A stretch of DNA of 64,000 bases from Roseibaca sp. Y0-43 (GTDB lineage: Bacteria > Pseudomonadota > Alphaproteobacteria > Rhodobacterales > Rhodobacteraceae): contig NZ_JAFMPR010000006.1 in the NCBI RefSeq assembly GCF_020667835.1, forward strand, positions 62,001 to 126,000, given 5' to 3'. Below the pieces are notes generated by a model. That model was not told where the DNA came from. It did not search any database and saw only the letters and a list, made by a program, of their open reading frames with translations. A program made the translations under genes and the position numbers. Shown here in pieces: positions 56,788-64,000 of the stretch (its first letter is position 1; each line of letters starts with the position of its first letter).

Positions 56788-57402
56788 CTACCGGCGCCCA
56801 CGTAAAAGCAACTGGGCGCGGCGGTTATAAAGCAGCCACGCGGTAGCCAGACCGACCAGCGCGGCCAGCATGTATTTCGTGACTGTGCCCATGGTGCCGA
56901 TAATCAGCAGAGCGTGCAGGATCGTGCCCGCCACGATCAGCACCGCCAACAGGATATGCAGCATCCGCCACAGGCTGGGGCGGACGTGCAACTTGCGGCG
57001 CAGCGCGGCAATGGCCGCGGCTGCGAAAATCGCCCACATGGCCAACACGCCCCAAACCGAAAACGGCGTGGGCGAGCGCAGCAGCAACGCATCGACCACA
57101 TCAGGCGGGCTTGTCAGCCACAGGCCGCCAATATGCACCAGCACGGCAAGCAGCACTCCAAGGCCCACATACCCATGCACCCGGCGCGCACGGGGCACGC
57201 TCAGCCCCGGTAGCCGTCCGTCCGCCAGAAGCGGCTGCAAAAGCAACAGGCCGAAGCCAAGGATGCCTGCGAAGCCCGACGCGATGTAGACCGGATCGCG
57301 CCATGCCAAATAGGGGCTGCGCGCAGCAACCAGCAGGGGCAGGGCAATCGCCGCCAGCACCCCGGCCCAGATCAGGACCGCGCGAAGCCTTTGGTTCACC
57401 AT
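56788..57402 (-). CDS. Ferric-reductase-like (heme b) transmembrane protein
   Basis: A 204-residue protein of about six helices. Paired histidines are in RRVHGYVGLGVLLAVLVHIG and in WRMLHILLAVLIVAGTILHA, spaced as in b-type heme membrane domains of the ferric reductase-like (YedZ/MsrQ) group. The cytoplasmic flavin/NAD module of true ferric reductases is missing. It starts eight bases after the Tat-exported dioxygenase-like gene. It may pass electrons from the quinone pool to that protein; this is inference from pairing. Confidence 0.8.
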   Translation of the reverse strand: MVNQRLRAVLIWAGVLAAIALPLLVAARSPYLAWRDPVYIASGFAGILGFGLLLLQPLLADGRLPGLSVPRARRVHGYVGLGVLLAVLVHIGGLWLTSPPDVVDALLLRSPTPFSVWGVLAMWAIFAAAAIAALRRKLHVRPSLWRMLHILLAVLIVAGTILHALLIIGTMGTVTKYMLAALVGLATAWLLYNRRAQLLLRGRR

Positions 57403-57409
57403 GTCGCGG

Positions 57410-57898
57410 TCAGGCCGGTTCCAGCACGAAATGCGCTTCCAGCGTGGTCAGGTCGGCACTGGCCATGACCGGGCGCAGGAACACGGTTTTGAACGCGCCG
57501 CTGTCATAGGCAAGATGCCCATGCGGCTGGCCAAAGGCGGGCACGATCTGCGGCATTTCCAGTCGGAACTCACCGTTCTCGTCCGTCAGTGTCGCCCCGT
57601 GGCTATGAGGGTCGCGTTCATGCCCCTCGGTCGTGTGCGCCCAAATCTGAATGCGTTGGCCTGCCAAGGGCGCGCCATCGCCCGCTCGGCGCACCGTGCC
57701 GGTCATCCAGAAACCACCGCCACCAATACGGTCCACGATCGGGGCACCGGGCAGGTAGTTATTCGCGCCGCCGCGCATGGTCCGGGTGGGGGCAAGCGAT
57801 TGCGCCTGTGCCGGCAAACTCAGCCCGGTCAGCGCGCTCGCGGCAATCAGGCCTGTGCCCGCAAGCACGTGACGGCGCTGGAACAGGTATTGGCTCAT
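57410..57898 (-). CDS. Tat-exported intradiol ring-cleavage dioxygenase-like protein
   Basis: A 162-residue protein with a twin-arginine-type signal (FQRRHVLAGTGLIAASALTG) and a small beta-sandwich domain like intradiol dioxygenases: FWMTGTVRRAGDGAPLAGQR, IQIWAHTTEGHERDPHSHGA, LTDENGEFRLEMPQIVPAFG, QPHGHLAYDSG. The two HxH pairs could bind iron or copper. Ligand tyrosines of catechol dioxygenases are not clearly placed, so the substrate is open. ATG 57898 has AGAGGAG upstream; a longer in-frame start (57976) would bury the Tat signal. Followed by the heme membrane protein. Confidence 0.82.
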   Translation of the reverse strand: MSQYLFQRRHVLAGTGLIAASALTGLSLPAQAQSLAPTRTMRGGANNYLPGAPIVDRIGGGGFWMTGTVRRAGDGAPLAGQRIQIWAHTTEGHERDPHSHGATLTDENGEFRLEMPQIVPAFGQPHGHLAYDSGAFKTVFLRPVMASADLTTLEAHFVLEPA

Positions 57899-57966
57899 CT
57901 GTCGTCTCCTCTGCTGACGGGCGGGCGTCTTGGCGACCCATACGTCAGAACGTAGCAACACAGCGA

Positions 57967-58039
57967 GCTTTGCCAAATCATAGATATGTCATCCCAAGAC
58001 GTGGGAATCCAAGGGCGCTTCCTGCCCTTATGGCAAAGC
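57967..58039 (-). ncRNA. Candidate structured RNA: three-way junction between the PCu(A)C and dioxygenase-like genes
   Basis: An outer stem of nine perfect pairs (GCTTTGCCA 57967-57975 with TGGCAAAGC 58031-58039) encloses two hairpins: TCCCA-AGACG-TGGGA (57993-58007) and AAGGGC-GCTTCCT-GCCCTT (58011-58029). The complement folds equally, so the strand is inferred from the flanking genes: on the minus strand it would end about 68 bases before the dioxygenase-like gene. It could be a leader element, a processed 3' end or a small RNA. Confidence 0.45.
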
Positions 58040-58066
58040 GCGCGCAGGGCCTAGCCGCGCGCGCGC
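58038..58066 (-). terminator. GC-rich hairpin after the PCu(A)C gene
   Basis: GCGCGCGC (58057-58064) pairs with GCGCGCGC (58038-58045) around an 11-base loop, followed on the minus strand by TTTGCC. The stem is strong but the U tract is short. It overlaps the first arm of the three-way-junction element by two bases, so the two folds might compete. Confidence 0.5.
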
Positions 58067-58076
58067 CCCATGTCCG

Positions 58077-58595
58077 TTACTGCTGCTGGCCGTGGTTCAT
58101 CTGCATGGCGCCATGGCCACCCATATTGCCGTGGTCCATCTTCATGCCGCCCATCGCGCCGGTCACGTCATTGCGTTCCAGATCGACGGGGATGATGACC
58201 TCCATCTCGCCCGCCTTCTCGAACACCAGCGTGACGGCAACCTCGTCGCCATGGGCCAGCTTGCGGTTCAGGCCCATGAACATCACATGATGGCCACCGC
58301 GTTCCAGCATATGCGTGTCGCCTGCGGGAATTTCGAAGCCTTCCTCGACCTCGACCATGCGCATGATGTCGCCATCGGCGATATGGGTGTGCAACTCGAC
58401 CCGCTGCGCCACGTCAGAGCGCGCGGCGACAAGGCGGTCATCCTCCGCGCCGGTGTTCTGAATGCCCATGAAGGCCGCGCCGGATTGCGCCATGGGCGAG
58501 GCCACGCGCGCATAGGCGTCATTGATGATGATATCCGCCGAAACCGGCAGGGCGAAGAAAGCGGCGGTTGCCGCCACGACTGCAAAGCGTTTCAT
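58077..58595 (-). CDS. PCu(A)C-family periplasmic copper chaperone
   Basis: Exported copper carrier that supplies Cu(I) to cytochrome oxidase assembly; 172 residues with a signal peptide (FAVVAATAAFFALPVSA). The copper motif H(M)X10MX21HXM is represented by ELHTHIADGDIMRMVEVEEG and THMLERGGHHVMFMGL. A Met/His-rich tail (GGMKMDHGNMGGHGAMQMNH) adds further copper sites. The ribosome site AAAGGA lies in a stem-loop with the end of the upstream gene. It matches the cutG position of the Rhodobacter cutFOG operon. Confidence 0.93.
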   Translation of the reverse strand: MKRFAVVAATAAFFALPVSADIIINDAYARVASPMAQSGAAFMGIQNTGAEDDRLVAARSDVAQRVELHTHIADGDIMRMVEVEEGFEIPAGDTHMLERGGHHVMFMGLNRKLAHGDEVAVTLVFEKAGEMEVIIPVDLERNDVTGAMGGMKMDHGNMGGHGAMQMNHGQQQ

Positions 58596-58649
58596 GTCAT
58601 GTCCTTTGTCTTTGCGTTGATATGTCAGGATCAGGCAAGGACTGGGACA
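58595..58649 (-). promoter_or_regulatory. Stem-loop that covers the ribosome site of the PCu(A)C gene
   Basis: On the minus strand, GTCCTT (complement of 58637-58642, in the last codons of the CutF-like gene) pairs with AAGGAC (complement of 58601-58606, the Shine-Dalgarno region); after a small internal loop TGTC (58646-58649) pairs with GACA (58595-58598), reaching the A of the start codon. The pairing is seen directly; control by translation of the upstream gene is inference. Confidence 0.6.
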
Positions 58650-58990
58650 GGGGGCGCACGGGCCGCGTGCGCGGAATTGGTGGTTTGCGGGTGGTGCACC
58701 GCCGCCGAGCGGACAAGGGTGACGGCCGACCTTGTCAGCCGCTGGACCGCCAGCGCCGGGGCAAGGTCGGGCAAGGCCGCAGAAAGCGCAATGCTGTCGG
58801 GGCATGGCACGCCATCGGCCACGCGATTGCCGTTTTCGTCCACCGAGATGGTGACAAGCCCGTAGCCGGTGCAGATGACATATTGGTCAACGCCCGCCCC
58901 TGCATTGTGCGAGCGCGCAAATCCCACGGACCCAAGCGCCAGCACAAGGGCCAGCGCAAACGGGGTCAGAAGGGCGATCAAACGTTGCAT
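58631..58990 (-). CDS. CutF-like small exported protein (DUF2946-like), upstream of the copper chaperone
   Basis: A 119-residue protein with a signal peptide (LIALLTPFALALVLALGSVG), two cysteines about 23 residues apart (YVICTGYG and DGVPCPDSIAL), and a Pro-rich end (AARAPPVPVLA). This layout, and its place 35 bases before a PCu(A)C gene, recall CutF of Rhodobacter capsulatus, a copper-sensing protein whose translation controls the downstream copper genes; from memory, its Pro-rich end and a stem-loop at the next ribosome site are needed. The multicopper oxidase gene (cutO) of that operon is missing here. Confidence 0.7.
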   Translation of the reverse strand: MQRLIALLTPFALALVLALGSVGFARSHNAGAGVDQYVICTGYGLVTISVDENGNRVADGVPCPDSIALSAALPDLAPALAVQRLTRSAVTLVRSAAVHHPQTTNSAHAARAPPVPVLA

Positions 58991-59028
58991 GAAAGTGGTT
59001 CTAGCCGGAAGAATGGACCTAGCCTAGC

Positions 59029-59643
59029 CTAGTCCGGCACGACAAGCTGCTTGATGGCAGCAATATGCGCGGGCGTGGCCGCACAAGCATCGGCGGCCAA
59101 GGCGCGGGCATCGCCCAGCAACGCCTCTGGCGCGGCGATGCGGTCTATCAGGCCCCATGAGAGCGCCTCGTCCGCGCCGATCTTGGCCCCTGCCATCAGG
59201 ATCATCTTGGCCCGTGCCGGACCGATCAGTGATGCCATGCGCGCCGGGTCCGAGGGTTGCGGCAGAAAGCCCAGCTTCATCACCGGGTAGAAGAATTTCG
59301 CCCCCGGCACCGCCAGCCGCAGGTCGCAGGCCAGCGCCATGCCGAACGCGCCGCCCGCCAGCGTGCCGTTCAGGGCCGCGATGGTCAGGCAAGGCAAGCC
59401 AGCGATCTGGCCCGACAAGCGTTCCCACAAGGGCGACGTCGCAAGCCCCGCGCGCGCCGCGTCCAGATCGGCCCCGGCGCTGAACACACGCCCCGCGCCG
59501 GTCAGGATCAGCGCTTTGGGCAGGTCCGTGCGCGCGGTAATCTCGCTCAGGGTTTCCAGCATCTCGGGCGTCAGGGAATTCGCCTTGTCGGGGCGGTTGA
59601 GGGTGATCGTCCACAGATCGCCCGTCGCATCGAACCCGATCAT
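59029..59643 (-). CDS. Short enoyl-CoA hydratase/isomerase (crotonase) family protein
   Basis: A 204-residue crotonase-fold protein, shorter than the usual 250-260. It has LNRPDKANSLTPEMLETL, the oxyanion region AGRVFSAGADLDAARAG and NGTLAGGAFGMALACDLRLA. The two catalytic glutamates of enoyl-CoA hydratase appear replaced: GGAFGMALACD aligns with GGGCELAMMCD (Glu to Gly), and the PE of the next motif is PV (FYPVMKLGFLPQ). It may act on another acyl-CoA reaction or have lost hydratase activity. Overlaps the SDR gene (ATGA). Confidence 0.85.
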   Translation of the reverse strand: MIGFDATGDLWTITLNRPDKANSLTPEMLETLSEITARTDLPKALILTGAGRVFSAGADLDAARAGLATSPLWERLSGQIAGLPCLTIAALNGTLAGGAFGMALACDLRLAVPGAKFFYPVMKLGFLPQPSDPARMASLIGPARAKMILMAGAKIGADEALSWGLIDRIAAPEALLGDARALAADACAATPAHIAAIKQLVVPD

Positions 59644-60389
59644 GCACCCAGCCCCAAGCGTTTGCGCATCCCTTCGTCGCGCAGGGATATTTCCTGCCCG
59701 ACCCAGTCATCGGCATCGGGCGTGCACATCCATGCCAGCGCAAGCGCGGGCCACTCGGGCGGGATATGCACGTCCCAATCCAACTGGCTGACCGGGTTGA
59801 TGCCGCTTGCGCGGATGGTGCGCTGCATGTCGGTGGCGACCGTGCCGGGCGACAGGCTCATGATGCGCAAATGCGGCGCTTCCTTTGCGGCCACGCGCGT
59901 CAGCATCCATGCGCCCGCCTTGGAGCTGCAATAAGCGCCCCACCCGTCCAGCGGGTTGTGCGCGGCCCCCGACCCTATGGTGATGATCGTGCCGCCCGGC
60001 CCCATCGCGGGCATGGCCGCGCGAAGCCCGTGAAACACGCCTTTCAGGTTGATGTCGATCAGCCGCCCGAATTCGGCGGGGTCAGCCTGCGACAAGGGGG
60101 CAATCGGGTCGATGACGCCCGCGTTATTGACCAGCACATCCAGCTTGCCGAAACGGTCCTGCATCTGCGCGACCGCATCCGCGACGGCGGCAAAATCGGT
60201 CATGTCGCAGACAAGGGGCAACGCGCCCGTGTCCTTGGCCACCCCCTCTAACGCGGCGCTATCGCGCGCGATCATGCCGACCTGTGCCCCGGCCTGCACG
60301 AAAGCGTGCACGGCCGCCGCGCCAATACCCCGGCTGGCCCCGGTAATCAGCACCGCCTTGCCCCGCAGCGATGACAGGTCAACAGACAT
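59640..60389 (-). CDS. Short-chain dehydrogenase/reductase
   Basis: A 249-residue classical SDR. The cofactor motif is LITGASRGIGAAAVHAF, with NNAGVIDPIAPL, the catalytic Ser in TIGSGAAHN and the Tyr-Lys pair in AYCSSKAGAWMLTRV. The substrate is unknown. The start has AAGGGGGG upstream, 10 bases after the tamB stop, so it may be read from the tam transcript. It is followed directly by the crotonase gene; the pair may act in one acyl pathway. Confidence 0.92.
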   Translation of the reverse strand: MSVDLSSLRGKAVLITGASRGIGAAAVHAFVQAGAQVGMIARDSAALEGVAKDTGALPLVCDMTDFAAVADAVAQMQDRFGKLDVLVNNAGVIDPIAPLSQADPAEFGRLIDINLKGVFHGLRAAMPAMGPGGTIITIGSGAAHNPLDGWGAYCSSKAGAWMLTRVAAKEAPHLRIMSLSPGTVATDMQRTIRASGINPVSQLDWDVHIPPEWPALALAWMCTPDADDWVGQEISLRDEGMRKRLGLGA

Positions 60390-60399
60390 GGCGCCCCCC

Positions 60400-63300
60400 T
60401 TAATAGTCCCGCTCGAAAAACAGCCCGACGCTGGAGCGCCCGTCGTTGTCCACCCGTCCGCGCGCGGTCAGCGAGGGCGAGAGGTCGATATTGATCGACA
60501 CTTCGCTGTCGCCCTGCGGGTTCACTTCCAGATCGGTATAGACATTCTCTGTCAGGTAACGGCCAAGACGCAGAGTGGCCTCGCCATCCTCATCGGCGCG
60601 CACATCCAGATCGTCCAGCCCCACGTTGCGGCGCAGGCGCTCCAAGATCCCCTCGGACCGCCCCGACAGCGTGGCCAGCGAAGAGGCCAGCTGCGCGGCC
60701 TGAAACAGGCTGAGCGTCTCGAACCCGCGCCCGAACAGCAGCAGCGAGACGATCTCTTCCTGCGGCAATTCCGGGCTGGATTCGAACAGGATTTCCGGCT
60801 CGTTCGCGCGGCCCTGCAACACGATGCGCGCGCTCACGCCCTCGCGCTCGGTAGAGGCGATGAGCCGCACGAAAGGCATGAAATCGCCCTGCAAACTGGC
60901 AAAGCCTTCATTCAGGGCAAAGCGGTTGCCCAGCAGGTCCAGACGCCCCCGGATCAGGTTGAACTGCCCGATGGGAATGACATCGGCGGTGGTGCCAGTC
61001 AGGCGCAGGTTGCCGCCAAGCTCGGCATCCAGCCCGCGACCCCGGATGAAGATCCGGTTGGGCGCGTCGATTTCAAGGTCCAGGCTGGCCGGGTAGCGCA
61101 CGCGGCCATGGGTTTCGCCCGCGAAAATACCGGCACGGGCGCGAGTGGTTTCGGCGCCAGCGGTTTCGCCCACATGGCGTATGTTGGGCGGTATGTAGGC
61201 CGGCCCTGTCAGCCCCACGCGGGGAATGCGCAATTCCATGCTGTCCAGTTGCAACCGCCCGGCCACGGTCGGGCCGCGCGTCAGCGCACCGGAAATGCCC
61301 AGATCGCCAGTGACGGACACTTCGAACAATTGCGGATCGACCACGCGCAACGCATCAAGCCGCGCGCGCAACGCCCCATCGAAAGGCGGCACAAGCGAGA
61401 TGCCGCCGTCAAGTGCGATCGTGCCGCCCTGCGCTGATTGCCCGCTGAGCGTGATCTGCGCCCGCCCACCGGCCAGATCGGCGCGCGCGTTGACGCCCGA
61501 CAAGCGCAAGGCGCGGCGAGGCGCGACCACTGTGATGCCGCTCAAACTTGCCGTGCCACTGAGAGATTCCAGACGTAGCGGACCCCGCAACGCCATGTCG
61601 AACTGCGCCGGACCTTGCACCGAACGTGGTTCAATGCGCGGGTTGACAAGGGCAATGTCGGTCGTTCCGGCAATGCGCAGGTCGGATTGCAGGGTTTTCG
61701 ACAAGGTGCCATCCACCGACACTTTCAGCCCCGCCGGTCCATTGGCGGTCATATTCAGCGCATAGGCATCGCCCGTGTCGCGCGCTTGGCCCGACAGCGA
61801 CAGCGCCCCGGCAATACCCGGCGCGACCAGTGCCAGATCGGCCAGACGCGCCTGCAAGGCCAGGTCGGGCCGCCCGTCGCGCAATTGTCCTGACACAGTC
61901 GCCGCCAGCGCGGGGCCGTCGATGACCAACCGTTCCAGCAGCACCGTCTCGGGGCCAGCGATCGCATCGAGCTGCACGGTATGGCGCCCGGCCAGAACGC
62001 GGTCGGCGGCGGCCGCGCCGAAGGCCAGATCGCGGGTTTCCGCGCTGAGCGACACGCGGCGATCCTGCCCGTCCTCGCGCAGGCCCAGCGTGCCGCTGAT
62101 CCCGCCGCGAAACGCCGGGCGCACCGCCCCTAGGTCGGGCAAGGCGAAAGCGCCATCCAGCACGGAAGCGCCGGGATCAATCCGGCCCGCGACCTGCGCG
62201 TTCAGCGTCGGGTTGGTCAGGTCCAGCCGCGTCAGGTCGAACGCCATCCCGTCGCGCTGGCCCGACAGGTCAAGCCGGGTTTCGCCGCGCAAGGCGCGGT
62301 CCAGATCGGGCTGGCCAAGCGCCAGATCGCGGGCGCGCGCGGTCAGCGCAACTTCTGCGGTGTCGGGTTGACCGCTCAAGGACAGATCAGCCTCTATCCG
62401 ACCTCCATATTGGGGGCCAAGGACGGCCAGATCGGTCATGTCCACACGGCCTGACAGGTCCACAAGCTCTGCCGAGAGCTGCCCCGACGCATCGACGCTC
62501 AGCGTCTGCGCCTCGGCCCGGAACTCGCGCAGGGTGATCTGCCCATCCGCGCCAACGGCGGATAGGGTAATCACGCTGTCATCGGCCAAAAGCGCATCCA
62601 GTTGCGGCTGGTCCAGCGCCAGATCCCGGCCCGTCAGGGTAGCGGTAAGGTCGAAACGGTCGCGCTCTGGCCCAAACAGGCCGCTAAGTTCGGCGTCGAC
62701 CGCGCCGCTCAAGGGGCGCCCTGCCAAACCGGACAGGCGCGAAATATCGGTATAGGCCGCGCGGATATCGGCCTCGACCCGGCCCTCGTTCAGACGTGCA
62801 CGACCCTGAAGCGCGTAGTCGCGCCCCTCCAGCAGGAAGCCGGGCATAAGGAAGGGCTGCCCTTCGCGCCAGATGAAGGCGATCGAGCCGTTCACGTTGC
62901 GCCCGATTGCCGCGCCAAGGTTTTCGTCGCGGGCCGACAAGCCGAGGGTCGAGAAATCGACCAGCGCGTCAATGGTGTCGCGGTCTTCGCCAAAGGCCTG
63001 CGAGGTGATGCGCCCCAAACCATTCACGAACAGGGATTCGACCGCGAAATCGCCGTTGTCGAAGCCGATCAGGTCCAGCAACAGCTCCCAGTCCTCGCTG
63101 CGCGCGGCGTCGAAGGTCAGTTGCAGATCGGCGCTTTCCACACTGGTATCGGCCCCGGCCAAGGGCAAAAGCACGCGGTCGCCTTCGGGGTCCACCAAGG
63201 TGCCGCGCAGATCGATCAACTCGGGCAGGCCTTCGGCCCCCACGCGGGCGCGACCATCGACCGACAGGGTCTGGGTGCGCACGCTCAGCGCATCAAGCGA

Positions 63301-64000
63301 CAATTGCCCATCGTCGAAACGACGGGCGCGGGTGGTGAAGGTGCTCTGATCGCCGAAAAACGGATGATAGGCTTCGGCCAGCAAGGGCCGCAGATCGCCC
63401 GTCAGGTTCAGCGCGACCGCCTGCTTCACACCGGGCTGTGCCGTCTGCAATTCGAACCGCCCTTCCACACGGGGCTGGCCATCGGTTGCAAGGCGAATAT
63501 CGGCGGCGAAATCCTCGATCGGGCCATCGCCCTCGACCCGCAACTCGGCCGAAGGCAGGCCCGGCACGTTCAACCGCGATACGGCAATGCCGCCGGGCGC
63601 TTCCACGGCTTCCAGCGACAGGGACAGGTTGCGCGTCTCGTTCGAGAAGGCGGCGTCGAGCGTGAAGCGGCCTTCCACCGCGTCCAGCCGCTCTAACACC
63701 AGCGTGGCCGCACCCGCACCCCCTTCAAGATCGGCGCGCCCACTGACCCCGGCGCGCACGGCCTGACCCAGCAATTCGGGCGCAAGCGACACTTCGGCCA
63801 GCGCCAGTTGCCCCAGTTCGACCGACACAGGCAGATCGGGCAATTCGAACCGCTGGAACGGCACCAGCTCGTCCGAAGGCGGGGCGACGGGCGTGCGCAA
63901 CACCTCGACCTTCGCCGCCGAAATCTCAGAGATTTCGATCCGGCGCTGGAACAGCGCCGCGCGGTTCCACTGAAGCGCCGCATCGCTTATGCGCAGCCAG
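60400..64000 (-). CDS. tamB: Translocation and assembly module protein TamB (5' end outside the window)
   Basis: The frame is open from 64000 to the TAA at 60400-60402, giving 1200 residues of a protein that begins beyond the window. TamB is a very long beta-taco that spans the periplasm and works with TamA in outer-membrane assembly or lipid transfer. The visible start WLRISDAALQWNRAALFQRR is near the family's N-terminal region; repeated beta strands of the AsmA/DUF490 type fill the middle; the C-terminal DUF490 domain includes LNLIRGRLDLLGNRFALNEG, ILQGRANEPEILFESSPELP and QEEIVSLLLFGR. Its stop is 10 bases before the SDR start. Confidence 0.94.
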   Translation of the reverse strand, partial: WLRISDAALQWNRAALFQRRIEISEISAAKVEVLRTPVAPPSDELVPFQRFELPDLPVSVELGQLALAEVSLAPELLGQAVRAGVSGRADLEGGAGAATLVLERLDAVEGRFTLDAAFSNETRNLSLSLEAVEAPGGIAVSRLNVPGLPSAELRVEGDGPIEDFAADIRLATDGQPRVEGRFELQTAQPGVKQAVALNLTGDLRPLLAEAYHPFFGDQSTFTTRARRFDDGQLSLDALSVRTQTLSVDGRARVGAEGLPELIDLRGTLVDPEGDRVLLPLAGADTSVESADLQLTFDAARSEDWELLLDLIGFDNGDFAVESLFVNGLGRITSQAFGEDRDTIDALVDFSTLGLSARDENLGAAIGRNVNGSIAFIWREGQPFLMPGFLLEGRDYALQGRARLNEGRVEADIRAAYTDISRLSGLAGRPLSGAVDAELSGLFGPERDRFDLTATLTGRDLALDQPQLDALLADDSVITLSAVGADGQITLREFRAEAQTLSVDASGQLSAELVDLSGRVDMTDLAVLGPQYGGRIEADLSLSGQPDTAEVALTARARDLALGQPDLDRALRGETRLDLSGQRDGMAFDLTRLDLTNPTLNAQVAGRIDPGASVLDGAFALPDLGAVRPAFRGGISGTLGLREDGQDRRVSLSAETRDLAFGAAAADRVLAGRHTVQLDAIAGPETVLLERLVIDGPALAATVSGQLRDGRPDLALQARLADLALVAPGIAGALSLSGQARDTGDAYALNMTANGPAGLKVSVDGTLSKTLQSDLRIAGTTDIALVNPRIEPRSVQGPAQFDMALRGPLRLESLSGTASLSGITVVAPRRALRLSGVNARADLAGGRAQITLSGQSAQGGTIALDGGISLVPPFDGALRARLDALRVVDPQLFEVSVTGDLGISGALTRGPTVAGRLQLDSMELRIPRVGLTGPAYIPPNIRHVGETAGAETTRARAGIFAGETHGRVRYPASLDLEIDAPNRIFIRGRGLDAELGGNLRLTGTTADVIPIGQFNLIRGRLDLLGNRFALNEGFASLQGDFMPFVRLIASTEREGVSARIVLQGRANEPEILFESSPELPQEEIVSLLLFGRGFETLSLFQAAQLASSLATLSGRSEGILERLRRNVGLDDLDVRADEDGEATLRLGRYLTENVYTDLEVNPQGDSEVSINIDLSPSLTARGRVDNDGRSSVGLFFERDY

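Follow-up and report, generated by a model that had tools for sequence, protein, structure and literature searches.

The window, a 64,000-nucleotide stretch of the Roseibaca sp. Y0-43 genome, encodes a PCu(A)C periplasmic copper chaperone and, 35 nt upstream on the same strand, a small leader protein (Table 1). The chaperone scores 130 bits against PF04314 (cut-off 29.4) and thus carries the domain that defines PCu(A)C chaperones; a genome-wide match found no second gene of this kind in the 3.03-Mb genome. An earlier note, made from the letters of the sequence alone, had described these two genes in this order, with a Cys pair and a Pro-rich end in the first product and a PCu(A)C chaperone as the second, and all of this holds. 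The same note read the pair as a shortened cutF-cutG. That name does not fit, since CutG of Rhodobacter capsulatus is a CopG-like thiol oxidoreductase and not a PCu(A)C protein (PMC8456105). Across the whole genome there are no matches to Cu-oxidase_3; therefore there is no CutO-type multicopper oxidase, and a full cutFOG copy elsewhere in the genome was ruled out.

The nearest named relatives of the source genome are Roseibaca ekhonensis and R. domitiana. Within the six-member clade that includes the window, identity is 57-75% for the leader, 82-85% for the flanking hydratase and 89-94% for the chaperone. Low identity of the leader would be expected of a peptide in which selection acts on a few motifs and not on the body. 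Also on the minus strand, a large open reading frame at 60400-63903 resembles by sequence a TamB-type translocation protein.

Table 1. Genes, leader codons and RNA segments at the leader-chaperone locus (window positions).
Feature	Position	Strand	Basis or remark
Ferric-reductase-like membrane protein	56788-57402	-	Downstream of the chaperone and the Tat-type protein
Tat-type exported protein	57410-57976	-	Weak dioxygenase-like and carboxypeptidase-regulatory matches; downstream of the chaperone
PCu(A)C periplasmic copper chaperone, His/Met-rich tail	58077-58595	-	PF04314, E 3.7e-38
Leader, 119 aa	58631-58990	-	Open reading frame; probable divergent member of the DUF2946/CruR lineage
Enoyl-CoA hydratase	59029-59643	-	38 nt upstream of the leader
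Cys40 codon (VICTGYG motif)	58871-58873	-	Invariant in 31 aligned relatives
Cys63 codon (PCPDS; Ser at the CXXC partner place)	58802-58804	-	Invariant in 31 relatives
RAPP arrest-motif codons, R111-P114, 47 residues after Cys63	58649-58660	-	Arrest site as given in the main text of PMC12992588
Basal 5' arm UGUCC, beginning in the last RAPP codon	58645-58649	-	Fold
5' arm GUCCUUGC, anti-SD, in the last leader codons	58635-58642	-	Pair probabilities and clade alignment
Apical 5' arm UGAU (leader stop codon and one base)	58630-58633	-	Pairs with AUCA, probability about 0.8-0.86
3' arms AUCA (58618-58621) and GCAAAGAC (58608-58615)	58608-58621	-	Pair probabilities
Chaperone SD (AAAGGA) and basal 3' arm GGACA (58600-58604)	58600-58607	-	Sequence, fold

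The leader protein and its lineage

The leader, which at 119 residues is shorter than 150, has a hydrophobic N terminus (judged by eye) taken as a putative signal peptide, followed by Cys40 and Cys63 (C-x22-C), a variable middle and a C-terminal RAPP-VPVLA. The Pro-rich end thus contains RAPP (residues 111-114), a proven ribosome-arrest motif that the earlier note missed, and its two prolines (residues 113-114) fall within the last 15 residues. Among 31 aligned leaders C40, G42, G54, C63, P113 and P114 are invariant, and R111, P64 and D65 are nearly so.

Of the 37 genomes of the genus, 35 encode a relative of the leader, as do 220 of 397 in a family-wide sample. We sampled 110 leader loci at about one per genus. 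A PCu(A)C match lies within 1.5 kb downstream in 109 of the 110, nearly always as the next gene, and the gap between the two is mostly 29-63 nt. The spacing of the two cysteines is 22 residues in 103/108 loci, and RAPP, RGPP or RDPP is present in 108/109. This R[A/G/D]PP motif stands 45-47 residues past the second Cys in 104/109 loci (window, 47), and it is followed by exactly three residues in 80/109 (window, five). Longer gaps before the chaperone gene occur in L004 (253 nt), L032 (117 nt), and L036 and L061 (both about 90 nt); these relatives may use another output, e.g., Rho termination, or have a misassigned start codon.

The window leader matches no Pfam or NCBIfam model. Its relatives provide the link to known families: 14 of 31 match PF11162 (DUF2946; best E 9.6e-6), a model to which the window leader itself shows no match. 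Comparison of the leader profile with alphaproteobacterial DUF2946 proteins (hhalign) gave a full-length alignment at 98.6% probability, a value favoured at the motif places by the choice of those proteins for their CXXC and RAPP motifs. Like CruR, the leader has a C-terminal RAPP about 45 residues after a Cys motif, and it resembles the RAPP arrest peptides in being a small, predicted secretory protein with such a motif (RAPP/RGPP) close to its C-terminal end. Throughout the window's clade of six, CPDS stands where CruR has CXXC, and a Cys occupies the second CXXC place in 52 of 109 relatives. CxxxC, the hallmark of CutF, is absent; C40 and C63 lie 22 apart, and the latter is followed by PDS. 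The leader is thus best placed with the DUF2946/CruR lineage and not with CutF proper, to which the earlier note had assigned it.

A weak DUF2946 match at another locus (L141) was set aside, as it has no leader-like open reading frame. CruR-type leaders (ICT...C-x2-C...R[AD]PP) are also found in Emcibacter (L190, L193, L194 and L196; near position 2501, 491 in L196), about 82 nt before putative TonB-dependent receptors named from the look of their sequences. Celeribacter halophilus (L195, 2501-2737) has a CruR-type leader with CPLC and RAPP 89 nt before a putative PepSY-type membrane protein. Such TonB-dependent receptor and PepSY-like neighbors are those described for CruR (PMC9426467).

Pairing of the leader tail with the chaperone ribosome-binding site

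The earlier note proposed that GTCCTT in the last leader codons (58642..58637, minus strand) pairs with AAGGAC at the SD site of the chaperone gene (58606..58601), and that TGTC (58649..58646, minus strand) and GACA extend the stem to the start codon. These segments do face each other, and the SD is involved in a stem. However, the register GUCCUU:AAGGAC has a pair probability of only about 0.2 in the window fold. The likeliest register combines UGUCC:GGACA, GUCCUUGC:GCAAAGAC and UGAU:AUCA, with pair probabilities of about 0.7-0.86 except at one mismatch. The two registers are mutually exclusive and the SD takes part in both. In the six-member clade alignment GUCCUU:AAGGAC is paired in 100% of cells, and it is the lowest-energy fold of the nearest relative (L111); the GUCCUUGC:GCAAAGAC register shows one double-sided change among the six sequences. 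Pair counts from these six do not choose between the two.

Folding of the window segment, a check suggested by the earlier note, gives an energy (-35.4 kcal/mol, against -29.8 +/- 3.4 for shuffled sequences; z -1.64) that is equalled or bettered by 10 of 200 shuffles. Judged from the window alone, the stem exceeds chance by a narrow margin. No Rfam family matches 58000-59700 up to E 1. Within the genus no covariation is detectable, both arms being too conserved (0.742 vs 0.723 permuted); when the arms are anchored on the stop codon and the SD, one register stands out there, at 75% paired versus at most 50%.

The wider family is more informative. The comparison covered 102 leader-PCu(A)C loci whose gaps fall within 25-95 nt, almost every one of them representing a separate genus. 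As the leader tail we took the stretch from the fourth RxPP codon to four bases past the stop, and as its partner the 26 nt before the chaperone start. Tails pair with their own partners at a mean of -12.40 kcal/mol, versus -9.85 +/- 0.25 kcal/mol when partners are permuted (z -10.3; none of 20000 permutations was as good), and z stays between -7.6 and -10.9 when permutation is confined to loci matched in GC or in gap length. For the last codons and stop, pairing with the part of the gap that precedes the SD has z -8.2; for the tail with the SD, z is -3.8 to -5.5. The RAP codons themselves give z -2.2; among the controls, the 15 nt before RAPP give z -1.4 and the chaperone's own coding start z +0.6.

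Uninterrupted helices of at least 8 bp occur in 34 of the 102 loci, compared with 11% in permutations. Among the 53 helices of at least 7 bp there are 50 distinct 5' arms; examples are GTTCTGTCGTGA:TCACGACAGAAC (L082), CTTTTGTTTGA:TCAAACGAAAG (L018), TCCTTCGTTG:CAACGAAGGA (L060) and TATTCTCTGT:ACAGAGAATA (L037). Because the pairing is locus-specific across 102 loci and the arms are so diverse, we take the stem to be real and to be maintained by compensatory change. A lack of covariation among relatives had been named beforehand as a reason to abandon the stem, and the family-wide value (z -10.3) answers that concern.

In RAPP arrest the third codon of the motif occupies the P site and the fourth the A site (PMC12992588, main text). 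Counted from that P-site codon, the 5' arm falls between about +9 and +17 nt (medians), where a stalled ribosome has its leading edge. Between the P-site codon and the chaperone start there are 50-115 nt, by our estimate enough for another ribosome to initiate beside the stalled one. A folding model in which the stalled ribosome blocks the mRNA to +16 raises the unpaired probability of the window SD from 0.39, with the ribosome further upstream, to 0.74 on RAPP; the stalled-state value is 0.55-0.74 depending on the stretch folded. The model frees the SD in each of the six clade members, from values of 0.14-0.46 to values of 0.55-0.84. Over the 102 loci the mean SD-free probability rises in the model from 0.28 to 0.38 (Wilcoxon 1.5e-8), with a gain above 0.2 in 25 loci and a loss above 0.2 in four. 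The modest family-wide release reflects the position of the stem, which in many relatives is just upstream of the SD and not over it.

A model for control of the chaperone

The anatomy of the locus, the conserved motifs and spacings, the covarying stem and the modelled freeing of the SD by a stalled ribosome are direct results, and from them we propose, at a probability of about 0.68, that a sensor leader stalled at RAPP opens the SD hairpin so that PCu(A)C is made, and that copper shortage likely prolongs the arrest. The leader, a sensor of the DUF2946/CruR lineage, would probably be exported during translation, and the ribosome would arrest at its C-terminal RAPP codons. While arrested, it would hold open the hairpin between the last codons and stop codon and the SD, allowing translation of the chaperone; upon release the hairpin would close and the chaperone would fall silent. 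The probable ligand is copper, which the nascent chain would sense by binding it at the invariant C40/C63 pair, and shortage of copper would most likely extend the arrest and keep the chaperone on. In vitro arrest at RAPP has been shown for CruR, and an enrichment of RAPP leaders upstream of PCu(A)C genes has been reported (PMC12992588, main text). The suggestion of the earlier note that stalled leader translation opens a stem over the chaperone SD gains support from the covarying stem. Points against the mechanism are the weak window stem (z -1.64) with its two registers and only one double-sided change in the clade, the arms too conserved within the genus, the modest modelled SD release across the family, and the CPDS in place of the CXXC on which copper control by CruR depends. 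Moreover, a ribosome merely terminating at the leader stop would likewise open the stem.

As to the direction of the response, and given the rest of the model, we lean towards a chaperone that is on at low copper, because of the CruR lineage and the role of PCu(A)C in supplying oxidases. CutF is stalled by copper (PMC9973294, main text), and the unlikely but strongest alternative is that here, too, the ribosome stays stalled for longer once copper has bound the exported leader, so that the chaperone would be made at high copper. The layout resembles R. capsulatus cutF-cutO in its gap (35 nt here, 40 nt there), SD-masking stem, Sec leader and Pro-rich end, features which are set against the missing CxxxC and a profile that matches DUF2946/CruR. 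In addition, for CruR-type RAPP leaders arrest takes place in the absence of copper and copper relieves it (PMC9426467), oxidases receive their supply from PCu(A)C, and a copper-starvation-induced oxidase-biogenesis operon of Bradyrhizobium is headed by a cruR homologue. That copper switches the chaperone on, as the earlier note supposed, is doubtful, because CruR, the nearest tested relative, responds in the opposite direction (PMC9426467) and the role of PCu(A)C is to supply copper.

It is rather improbable that the locus shows plain translational coupling, in which any ribosome at the leader stop opens the stem and neither the Cys pair nor RAPP is regulatory. The stop codon lies within the 5' arm in many relatives, and therefore termination alone would disrupt the stem; yet conservation is confined to very few residues, C40, C63 and RxPP among them, the C-x22-C spacing is fixed in 103/108 loci, the distance from the second Cys to the R is 45-47 residues in 104/109, and proteomes show strong avoidance of RAPP-like motifs except where these serve arrest (PMC12992588, main text). 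We give a similarly low chance to a leader that senses thiol oxidation, via a C40-C63 disulfide, or its export state rather than copper itself. A copper chaperone gene follows the leader at almost every locus, and those relatives that have been studied have copper as their ligand, which outweighs the fixed 22-residue Cys spacing, the loss of the CXXC partner in the window's clade and a similar Cys pair in a RAPP leader before a thioredoxin gene. Least probable is Rho-dependent attenuation, in which a stalled ribosome would shield nascent mRNA from Rho instead of unmasking the SD: despite the homology to CruR, the intergenic region is short (35 nt, versus 162 nt in CruR) and the SD-adjacent stem is kept by compensatory change.

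Returning to the RAPP-stalled leader, we tentatively suggest a broader reading, which we hold to be somewhat short of probable: across Rhodobacteraceae, a CruR-lineage leader has been combined with a CutF-type SD-masking hairpin in which the last codons, by the arrest motif, double as the anti-SD arm. The chaperone would be on at low copper, and copper or disulfide state would be sensed via a fixed C-x22-C in place of CXXC or CxxxC, making this a modular hybrid so far undescribed. What appears new here is the covarying stem across Rhodobacteraceae, the joining of a CruR-type leader to a CutF-type mRNA switch, and the invariant C-x22-C pair with a degenerate CXXC in the window leader. A leader-PCu(A)C pair of this kind could show how control of a copper chaperone might work without a copper-sensing transcription factor.

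Comparison with known systems

RAPP/RGPP arrest peptides such as ApdA, ApdP and the Streptomyces lividans set are likewise small secretory proteins encoded upstream of a regulated gene, with the motif a few residues from the C terminus (PMC12992588, main text). They differ in carrying features that monitor Sec/YidC, in whose place the window leader has a Cys pair, and the arrest is predicted here. CutF-like leaders before PCuAC genes are among the most frequent arrangements reported (list D of PMC9973294) and have the same gene order as the window; stem covariation and RAPP position are undescribed for them in the main text. Neither that main text nor that of PMC12992588 gives, for the leader-PCu(A)C group, a covarying SD stem or arrest codons that coincide with the anti-SD arm.

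The closest likeness in the leader is to CruR (BP2923, DUF2946) upstream of bfrG in Bordetella pertussis, a small exported protein with a Cys motif and about 45 residues to a RAPP near the C terminus, encoded as the first gene before a copper gene (PMC9426467; PMC12992588, main text). The window differs from CruR-bfrG in its CPDS for CXXC, its gap (35 vs 162 nt), its covarying SD-masking stem and its PCu(A)C target. In its mRNA design, the pair instead resembles CutF-CutO-CutG of R. capsulatus, with a short gap, a stem over the next SD, a Sec leader (predicted here) and a Pro-rich end; the output of the stem has been tested in that system (PMC9973294, main text). Unlike the window leader, CutF has a CxxxC, and its operon targets a multicopper oxidase, includes a CopG-like CutG and is switched on by copper. 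CutF and CruR are related leaders with opposite reported responses to copper, and the more than 100 leader-PCu(A)C pairs are mixed in kind, the leader being like CruR and the mRNA output like CutF. One such pair could show whether the sign of the response follows the leader or the mRNA design.
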